In this document: positions 23,682 to 25,605 of the stretch, piece after piece | How positions within the stretch are numbered: the first letter of the stretch is position 1 | Layout: each line of letters begins with the position of its first letter | DNA from: Cognatishimia activa | GTDB taxonomy: Bacteria > Pseudomonadota > Alphaproteobacteria > Rhodobacterales > Rhodobacteraceae | Length of the DNA: 64,000 nucleotides | NCBI RefSeq assembly: GCF_017798205.1 | Contig: NZ_CP060010.1 | Span: 2,666,001 to 2,730,000, forward strand | Direction of reading: 5' to 3' | Notes under the pieces: model-generated | The model's input: the letters and a program-made list of their open reading frames with translations, nothing else | What the model was told of the DNA's origin: nothing | Database searches by the model: none | Made by a program: the position numbers and the translations under genes

Positions 23682-24896
23682 CTAAGAATAAGCCATCTCC
23701 AACGTCCGCCGCGCGCGTTTGACCAGTTCTGCATCTGACAGGCGCGCAAGGTCGCGGGCGGGTTGGGCTCCGTTGAAGGCCATGATCACGGGCTGGCCGG
23801 TATAGCGGTAGAGATTGAGCCATTGGTTGAACTGGCCTTGCGGCAGGCTGTTCTCTGGCGTGGCGATCCAGGTGACGTCTTCGTCCCAGAACACCTCATT
23901 GTAGCGCAGATAGAGTTTGTCCAACGTGCCCATACCCAAGCGGTTGATCGCTGCGGTTTTCCAGTCGGGCAGGGCGGGAGAGAACTTGATCGCGCCTGCC
24001 TTAAGCACCCCAAGAGGCACCGTAATAATCACCGCATCAAAGCTGGCGGTGCGGCCTTTGCCGTCACGCAGATGCACGCCGTCCTCGTCGGTTTTCACAT
24101 GGGTGAGGACATGGCCGAGACGGATGTCCAGAAGGGATTGCACTCCGGTAAAGAGCTGATCATAGCCGCCGGGAAAGATCACCTCGTCACCGCCATAGTC
24201 TGCGTCTGACCAATAGGCCGAGGCGTTGACGTCGGATGTGTCCGCGCCAAGATTATGCTGCACGGACAAGACGTTATCCAGCCAATCCGGGGTTTGAGAG
24301 TCCGGGATCTCGCGGCCGTCACCGCCTCGGACCACATAGGTTTCATCGGTTTCGCGGGTTTGTACTCCCAGTTCATCAGCAAGGTCGGTCAGAGGGTTGC
24401 CGCGGGTGCCGTGGATCCAGCTTGCGCCCAGATCCAGTGGCAGGCCGAGGCTGCGGTCGGTCAGGATGCGGCCCCCAATGCGGCGGCGTGCTTCTAGGAC
24501 GGTGACGTCGTAACCTTCCTCAGAAAGCCAGAGCGCCGCGGCCAAGCCACTGACGCCTGCACCGATTACGGCAACAGATTCTGCGTCTGTGGTGTCATAG
24601 ATCGCTTCGGCAGCAATTTGGCCTGACTCATAGGCGGCGTGCACGGTGCTGTTGTAATCGGGATGGGCCGCTTCGCCCGCGAAGAAGAGCTGTTCGCCAA
24701 CGGGTTCGCCGAGGGCTTCGTGATCGCGGCGGCGTGCGCCTTTGGCGACATAGGAGTAAGACCCAAGGCTATAGGGATCGCGGCTCCAGTTTGTGCGCAG
24801 ATAACCTGTGGGCGCGCCTTGGGCCGATGCCGCGAGTGGGACAAAGCCTGCGGCCATGGCCGAGATCGAGGTGTTCAGGAAAGTTCTGCGGTTCAT
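23682..24896 (-). CDS. Tat-exported flavin amine oxidase, circularly permuted
   Basis: About 404 residues. It begins with a twin-arginine signal (NRRTFLNTSISAMAAG, cleavage after ASA at about residue 25). The mature protein then starts with what is normally the C-terminal end of this family: W37SRDPYSLGSYSY and LFFAGEAAHPDYNSTVHAAY (70-89). Only after it comes the canonical N-terminal FAD motif VAVIGAGVSGLAAALWLSEE (108-127) with E135 and RIGGR. The middle (GASWIHG, GTLDKLYLRYNEVFWDE with the conserved Lys) follows in normal order, and the protein ends where the W-R-DP segment should begin. All blocks are present once, so it looks functional but permuted. A second ATG at 24908 is possible. 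It is probably repressed by the divergent TetR protein. The substrate (amine or polyamine) is unknown. Confidence 0.85.
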   Translation of the reverse strand: MNRRTFLNTSISAMAAGFVPLAASAQGAPTGYLRTNWSRDPYSLGSYSYVAKGARRRDHEALGEPVGEQLFFAGEAAHPDYNSTVHAAYESGQIAAEAIYDTTDAESVAVIGAGVSGLAAALWLSEEGYDVTVLEARRRIGGRILTDRSLGLPLDLGASWIHGTRGNPLTDLADELGVQTRETDETYVVRGGDGREIPDSQTPDWLDNVLSVQHNLGADTSDVNASAYWSDADYGGDEVIFPGGYDQLFTGVQSLLDIRLGHVLTHVKTDEDGVHLRDGKGRTASFDAVIITVPLGVLKAGAIKFSPALPDWKTAAINRLGMGTLDKLYLRYNEVFWDEDVTWIATPENSLPQGQFNQWLNLYRYTGQPVIMAFNGAQPARDLARLSDAELVKRARRTLEMAYS

Positions 24897-24951
24897 CTTT
24901 GTGCCCATTGTGATTGCGCGCCCGACGGCTAGACTGAAGAAAGTGTTCAAT

Positions 24952-24965
24952 CTGTCATATGACAG
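24952..24965. promoter_or_regulatory. TetR operator 1
   Basis: CTGTCATATGACAG, a perfect 14-bp palindrome of the form CTGTC-N4-GACAG, between the divergent amine oxidase and TetR genes. It is repeated in operator 2 with 24 bp between centres. Confidence 0.82.
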
Positions 24966-24973
24966 GTAACGAA

Positions 24974-24991
24974 ACCTGTCAATCGACAGGT
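24974..24991. promoter_or_regulatory. TetR operator 2
   Basis: ACCTGTC, four bases, GACAGGT: a perfect 18-bp inverted repeat with the same CTGTC-N4-GACAG core as operator 1. It lies 20 bases before the TetR start codon, so it suits autorepression. Confidence 0.82.
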
Positions 24992-25011
24992 GAACTTGCT
25001 ATGTTGAGGCA

Positions 25012-25605
25012 ATGAGACCCGTGAAGACGTCAAAAAATCGTAAAGGCGAGATCGTTGCTGCAGCTGCAAACTTGCTGGCTCAGCAGGGCGAGGCGGGGTT
25101 TTCTCTGCGCGAAGTGGCGAAAGTCGTGGGGATCAAGCTGGCGTCCCTGCAGTATCATTTCCCAACACGGGAAATGCTGGTGACGGCTGTACTAAATGAT
25201 GTGATGGATGGCTATGTCGACCAAGTCGGGGCTGCCTTGGAGACCGCCGGTGAGGATCCCGAAGAGCAGCTTCGGATCGCCGCGAGGGCCTTGTGCGAGG
25301 ACTCCGGCGGCGATGGCAGTCAGCAGCGGCTAGAGATTCATCTGTGGTCGATGGCGCTGAATGACGCTTTGGTGCGCAATGCGCTGGACGACAGTCACCG
25401 GGACTATATCAATAACATTTGCGACATGATCCTGGCCGCGCGTCCGTCTGTCAGCGCCGAAGAGGCCCGCAGGCGCGCGATTGTGATCGCGAGCATGTAT
25501 GAAGGCAGCATGTTGTTTACGGATGAGCAGGTGACAGGGGTGTCGCAAAACGATCTGCGCGAGACGATCTATAGGGCGAGCCTCGAGATCGCTTTGGCGC
25601 ACTAG
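25012..25605 (+). CDS. TetR-family regulator, divergent from the amine oxidase
   Basis: 197 residues. The N-terminal TetR helix-turn-helix covers about residues 9-55 (GEIVAAAANLLAQQGEAGFS, then LREVAKVVGIKLASLQYHFP, with the usual YHFPTRE turn). The C-terminal domain is all-helical and presumably binds the ligand (DSGGDGSQQRLEIHLWSMAL; EGSMLFTDEQV). It is divergent from the amine oxidase, and two identical-core palindromes fill the gap, so it most likely represses both. The inducer may be the amine substrate or product. Confidence 0.9.
   Translation: MRPVKTSKNRKGEIVAAAANLLAQQGEAGFSLREVAKVVGIKLASLQYHFPTREMLVTAVLNDVMDGYVDQVGAALETAGEDPEEQLRIAARALCEDSGGDGSQQRLEIHLWSMALNDALVRNALDDSHRDYINNICDMILAARPSVSAEEARRRAIVIASMYEGSMLFTDEQVTGVSQNDLRETIYRASLEIALAH

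Follow-up and report, generated by a model that had tools for sequence, protein, structure and literature searches.

A pair of matching palindromes suggests TetR control of a circularly permuted amine oxidase and of the regulator's own gene in Cognatishimia activa

Introduction

The half-sites of the tet operator read CTATC and GATAG, and in Tn10 they are separated by a spacer of three bases (N3). As described in the accessible part of PMC3037858, the operators O1 and O2 of the Tn10 tetR/tetA pair overlap promoters, and a single regulator serves both genes. The accessible part of a Streptomyces survey (PMC3511530) names enzymes as the commonest class of products encoded divergently from TetR-family regulators. 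According to the same part, five out of five tested regulators separated from the divergent gene by less than 200 bp repress that gene, while two regulators with gaps above 200 bp bind the intergenic region and probably control just their own genes.

The locus described here belongs to a 64-kb stretch of the Cognatishimia activa genome, referred to below as the window. It resembles Tn10 in that a regulator gene and its presumed target are separated by two matching putative operators, in the divergent orientation that the available part of PMC3511530 also gives for the Tn10 regulator. The overlap of operators and promoters described in the available part of PMC3037858 would be a further parallel if the promoters predicted here are real. 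The half-sites CTGTC and GACAG resemble those of tetO. Unlike in Tn10, the spacer is N4 and the target codes for an amine oxidase rather than a tetracycline efflux pump. With the short-gap regulators covered by the available part of PMC3511530 the locus shares a divergent enzyme gene and a gap of 115 bp, but the host is not a Streptomyces and no orthologue of the regulator was found. The enzyme resembles flavin amine oxidases (PF01593; LSD1, spermine and polyamine oxidases), matching LSD1 in three pieces; unlike in canonical members of the family, the order of its segments is circularly permuted.

Results

Intergenic region and predicted promoters

The features of the locus are collected in Table 1. 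The N-terminal helix-turn-helix of the regulator matches PF00440 with 32.9 bits (cut-off 24), and a single-sequence structure model contains nine helices at a mean pLDDT of only 58. The mechanically assigned start of the oxidase frame is a TTG at 24950. The ATG at 24896 is common to relatives (M-x-R-R in the window protein and at loci L009 and L010) and is most likely the true start, which leaves a gap of 115 bp (24897-25011). Site 1 is 55 bp away from this start, and site 2 is 22 bp away from the tetR start.

Table 1. Coordinates of genes, putative operators and predicted promoter elements (window numbering)
Feature	Sequence	Position	Strand	Remarks
Flavin amine oxidase, circularly permuted		23682..24896	-	404 aa; N-terminus MNRRTFL
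Putative operator 1	CTGTCATATGACAG	24952..24965	.	Palindromic throughout, N4 included; overlaps predicted oxidase -10
Predicted oxidase -10	TATGAC	24954..24959	-	Inside operator 1; 4/6 to consensus, 17-bp spacer
Inner inverted repeat	TGACAGGT-N6-ACCTGTCA	24959..24980	.	Facing halves of both operators
Putative operator 2	ACCTGTC-N4-GACAGGT	24974..24991	.	7+7 perfect arms
Operator 2 core	CTGTCAATCGACAG	24976..24989		
Predicted oxidase -35	TTGACA	24977..24982	-	Inside operator 2; consensus match only
Predicted extended -10 of tetR	TGCTATGTT	24997..25005	+	Putative; weak -35 in operator 2
TetR-family regulator		25012..25605	+	197 aa; recognition helix region GIKLASLQYHF

The best promoter match between 24880 and 25040 is TTGACA-17-TATGAC, read towards the oxidase, with 10 of the 12 consensus bases (7 of 12 for the runner-up). 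TTGACA followed by a -10 hexamer with at least 4/6 consensus bases occurs at three more places in the window. In the other direction, transcription of tetR might start approximately at its ATG, judging by the predicted extended -10. Operator 2 overlaps both the predicted oxidase -35 and the weak -35 of tetR. Thus, the operators overlap both promoters as consensus matches; a stricter scan, which requires T at the last position, lists nothing at the predicted oxidase promoter.

In our judgement of the sequence, it is very probable that the neighbouring TetR represses both the oxidase gene and its own gene through the two sites. Dimers of TetR would bind to both CTGTC-N4-GACAG operators of the divergent promoter region, operator 2 covering the oxidase -35 as well as upstream sequence of the tetR promoter, and operator 1 covering the oxidase -10. 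With the operators occupied, both genes would be shut off, the oxidase at two points. An inducer, which might be a substrate or product of the oxidase, would free the operators of the repressor. Binding, repression and induction are what we infer, on promoters that are predicted.

TetR could instead be chiefly an autoregulator, with the oxidase transcribed from a promoter located elsewhere and outside TetR control. The position of operator 2 just 22 bp from the tetR start and the imperfect oxidase -10 speak for this, as do the two regulators in the available part of PMC3511530 that bind a shared gap yet probably only autoregulate. The gaps of these two exceed 200 bp, compared to 115 bp here, and operator 1 lies over the -10 of the best match to an oxidase promoter and touches no predicted tetR element, so we consider pure autoregulation unlikely.

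Operators of related regulators and helix-operator covariation

No orthologue of the window TetR was found in 8 other genomes of the genus, 294 other genomes of the family, 384 other genomes of the class, or in plasmids. In the family genomes at most 11 candidates were scored per genome, and the best outside matches among the candidates scored have about 29-31% identity. The C. activa genome codes for a second TetR (locus L086), sharing 28 of 79 residues with the window TetR in the DNA-binding part. An ACCTATC-N4-GATAGGT palindrome (L086:1501-1518) is located 11 bp before the ATG assumed to be its start. The gap holding this palindrome separates the regulator from a divergently oriented cupin gene of the ChrR type, and farther out comes an SDR gene.

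Homologues of the L086 regulator were found at 27 loci in 25 of 248 family genomes. A 14-base pattern with up to 2 mismatches is present upstream at 17 of the 27 loci, and 6 of the 27 have a second non-overlapping copy at the same threshold, 48-54 bp apart. One homologous locus (L092) has, some 98 bp ahead of the TetR start, an inverted repeat of 44 bp whose perfect arms of 20 bases surround an ACCTATC/GGTAGG core; it is far longer than the operator.

When the 27 loci are sorted by recognition helix, KxAS helices followed by H have CCTATC-N4-GATAGG upstream in 18 of 22 cases (no site in the other 4), and other helices with H have it in none of 5, including 0/4 for GIRKAS, so that this site type occurs at 18/27 loci. 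A second TetR family, reached via L006 (n = 9 loci; L008 has no match), is associated with TAGGTC-N4-GACCTA. In this family xLGN/xLSN helices with Q are accompanied by that site in 3/5 loci and lack the expected site in 2/5, while xxGN helices with T have no site (0/2). The xxGN helix with A at L117, which is another stretch of the G141 gene already represented by L007, is accompanied by TAGGTC-N4-GATCTA; this is one mismatch away from either inner type and was scored as no site. TAGGT-N5-ACCTA-type repeats at L015 fall outside the count of the N4 scan.

The window TetR has a KxAS helix followed by Q (GIKLASLQ), alongside a CCTGTC-N4-GACAGG operator. Its helix mixes the types of both groups of relatives, as does its operator. 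The covariation was scored with four patterns, whose classes and thresholds were fixed after the first cases had suggested it. Among the loci added later (L115, L116, L117 and L119), both Q-bearing ones (L115 and L116) fit the pattern. Loci of one family do not count as independent cases, which leaves roughly three lineages.

We tentatively speculate that a single-origin clade of Tat-exported permuted oxidases has repeatedly come under different TetRs, and that the window repressor is a natural chimera with a modular way of reading DNA; this is plausible, though short of probable. The KxAS part of the helix would determine the outer triplet of the operator (AGG, not CTA), and Q instead of H next in the helix would determine the inner one (GAC, not GAT).

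The functional unit and its likely regulator

CTGTC-N4-GACAG occurs twice in the gap, with centres 24 bp apart. The earlier note had described two perfect palindromes between divergent genes: position and count stand, but palindromy through the N4 is confined to site 1, the N4 of site 2 not being palindromic. Site 2 has the longer perfect arms (7+7).

The facing halves of the sites form a 22-bp inverted repeat, TGACAGGT-N6-ACCTGTCA, with 8+8 arms, which could be the working operator for a single dimer, the outer palindromes being its by-products. It has the top inverted-repeat score in the gap, equalled in 4 of 300 shuffles, and at L116, too, an inner repeat is found between a pair of closely spaced sites. 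Such a repeat arises automatically from any two close copies of one palindrome, and relatives share the N4 unit, with copies spaced 48-54 bp apart at the two-copy loci (6/27). We therefore regard the single inner operator as quite improbable; since it would also repress both genes, its probability overlaps with that of repression by TetR through both palindromes.

Another regulator of the genome might use the sites in place of the neighbouring TetR. Binding by the neighbour is deduced from sequence, and the L086 TetR, whose operator is similar (CTATC for CTGTC), might cross-bind. This proposal fares no better than the previous one, because the operator difference from L086 parallels the helix difference and the genome has no further site with 0 or 1 mismatch. 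When at most one mismatch is allowed, ACCTGTC-N4-GACAGGT occurs in the whole genome (3.25 Mb) at the two window sites only, suggesting a local switch. With up to 2 mismatches, there are 12 places (10 beyond the window pair), versus 24 for the control. Among 385 genomes of the class, the operator pair (spacer 8-13) was found in one, that of the window. In the two named relatives, a search allowing one mismatch finds no copy of the motif at L009 and a single 1-mismatch match at L010 (position 2742), which is at chance level and falls inside a LysR-like frame.

A genome search for further copies of the bare 10-base CTGTC-N4-GACAG, proposed in the earlier note, has found two places beyond the window pair, both within long open frames (resembling purK and nitrilase, judged from the translations). 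The total of 4 places in 3,252,335 bases, versus 6 for the reversed-pattern control, means that the motif has no global enrichment. Locally the picture is different: the motif is expected 0.02 times on average per 64-kb window by dinucleotide shuffling, and among all 5+5 palindromes (spacer 2-8) repeated at most 60 bp apart the window yields this pair only, versus a mean of 0.03 and a maximum of 1 in 60 dinucleotide shuffles. Functionless chance palindromes, for which the missing genome-wide enrichment could be cited, are hardly credible given a second copy 24 bp from the first within a gap of 115 bp, and two copies in none of 100 shuffled windows.

The circularly permuted oxidase

The oxidase matches PF01593 in three stretches with 231.9 bits (cut-off 19.8). 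Its alignment with LSD1 falls into three pieces in permuted order, together spanning residues 41-416 with gaps. We take these to include the FAD-binding GxGxxG region, the LDK segment and the FFAGE...STVHAA segment. The canonical PF01593 order, with the FAD-binding N-terminus first and the FAGE/TVH segment last, is absent: the former C-terminal segment of about 75 residues precedes the FAD-binding N-terminus, and this is common to 19 sequences.

Of 394 family genomes, 34 contain a match to a fragment spanning the junction. In 15 of these 34, including the window's own with two copies, a locus matches colinearly along the whole protein and is hence permuted (L021, among these 15, is cut by a contig end). 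The other 19 genomes (four of them left out, and L046 a partial frame) add 14 loci that match as three shuffled pieces, i.e., in canonical order. A 795-aa frame at L045 was considered as a duplication intermediate and rejected, being a canonical oxidase preceded by an open stretch. The named relatives are from Roseibium sp. MMSF_3412 (76% identity) and Falsiruegeria mediterranea (59%).

After the blocks had been swapped to restore canonical order, a tree of 31 rows was built, in which a branch with support of 96/94 separates the 19 permuted rows from the rest. The other 12 rows are canonical (L032 and L037 were dropped by the pattern filter, and the partial frame L046 is absent). The canonical rows were picked by their match to the junction fragment, so the tree leaves room for additional origins. 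The earlier description of the enzyme as a permuted amine oxidase is borne out by the order of the LSD1 pieces, the junction-fragment loci and the tree. An AlphaFold2 model from three rows (window, L009 and L010) has a mean pLDDT of 42, which is too low for a fold search; the permutation thus rests on sequence.

Certain glycines, which we presume to be FAD-binding, and the LDK segment are among the positions invariant in five permuted sequences. An RR pair close to the N-terminus, presumably as in a Tat signal, is common to all 19 permuted oxidases, some of whose starts were placed by alignment, and we assume the MNRRTFL N-terminus of the window oxidase to be a Tat-like motif. Judging by these sequences, the oxidase is probably Tat-exported.

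Gene neighbourhoods

In seven of the eight other genomes of the genus zapA adjoins grxD with neither the oxidase nor TetR. In the eighth, the sister genome G298, the C-terminal 50 residues of the oxidase (96% identity) are found at a contig end; the rest of the oxidase and TetR are not in this assembly. The oxidase is therefore seen at this place only in the window species and G298.

A TetR gene is located beside 3 of the 19 permuted oxidases, the window's own included, according to crude gene calls and with some contigs ending close by. At L053 it is divergent from the oxidase, and the palindrome is unremarkable (39% of shuffles are as good). At L055 it lies 12 bp downstream of the oxidase, and an unusual repeat, AATGAACGAACGATCGTTCATT, equalled in 1 of 300 shuffles, is found upstream of the oxidase. 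The TetR of L053 gives no match to the window TetR, and that of L055 is 33% identical over 52 residues; both oxidases are outside the supported group of the window oxidase in the tree. The best-scoring repeat of all (0/300 shuffles as good) is located at L058 inside the gene upstream of the oxidase, where no TetR was seen beside the oxidase.

Other neighbourhoods vary. The second permuted oxidase of the C. activa genome (L061, G000:C1:610500-619000; also L014) is 49% identical to the first, lies near an lgt-like gene, has no TetR seen beside it and has a close relative in G298 (L013). Reading of translations places an FNR/Crp-like regulator gene directly upstream of the oxidase at L058 and L060; at L058, greedy gene calling had called a shadow frame over it. 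At L010 (32-8739) the permuted oxidase is accompanied by an ABC transporter, two glutamine-synthetase-like genes and one amidotransferase gene, and the oxidase of L049 lies among genes resembling this cluster. The cluster may constitute a glutamylated-amine pathway; the synthetases of L010 do not reach the gamma-glutamylputrescine synthetase cut-off, which leaves an amine pathway as a suggestion.

Discussion

The claim of the earlier note that TetR controls the oxidase gene and itself is well supported at the sequence level by promoter overlap, uniqueness of the sites in the genome, a gap below 200 bp and helix-operator covariation, the last being the strongest support. The 115-bp gap leads to the same reading under the 200-bp rule, as given in the available part of PMC3511530. 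The similar site of the L086 regulator and the TetR genes next to the oxidases of L053 and L055, the latter with its unusual repeat, were also counted in favour of repression. Against repression we counted the missing TetR orthologue, the presence of TetR beside just 3/19 oxidases, the unremarkable palindrome of L053 and the top-scoring repeat of L058, the empty strict scan, the three further promoter-like matches in the window, and the late noticing of the covariation with its few lineages and its exceptions. That TetR senses amines, also proposed in the earlier note, is a guess.

The design of the switch is ordinary, a textbook arrangement; the newer part is the clade of permuted oxidases together with the covariation, which bears on how the repressor reads DNA. 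Among the literature matches listed, with most subscription papers outside the coverage, there is no circularly permuted amine oxidase and, by title and abstract, no TetR operator of the CTGTC-N4-GACAG type; a search by title and abstract with the same coverage gave no pair of TetR and amine oxidase. No published description of the permuted clade or of the helix-operator covariation was found in the literature searched.

Overall, the proposed switch amounts to a precise prediction: one repressor, two operators, one target. The covariation provides a small natural model for an old question, namely what determines the DNA sites of TetR proteins, and if the modular reading is true, one helix residue re-aims a repressor. 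As for the permuted oxidases, they suggest a flavin amine oxidase fold able to accommodate circular permutation, with the permuted order retained across wide divergence; they could also be a source of new enzymes.
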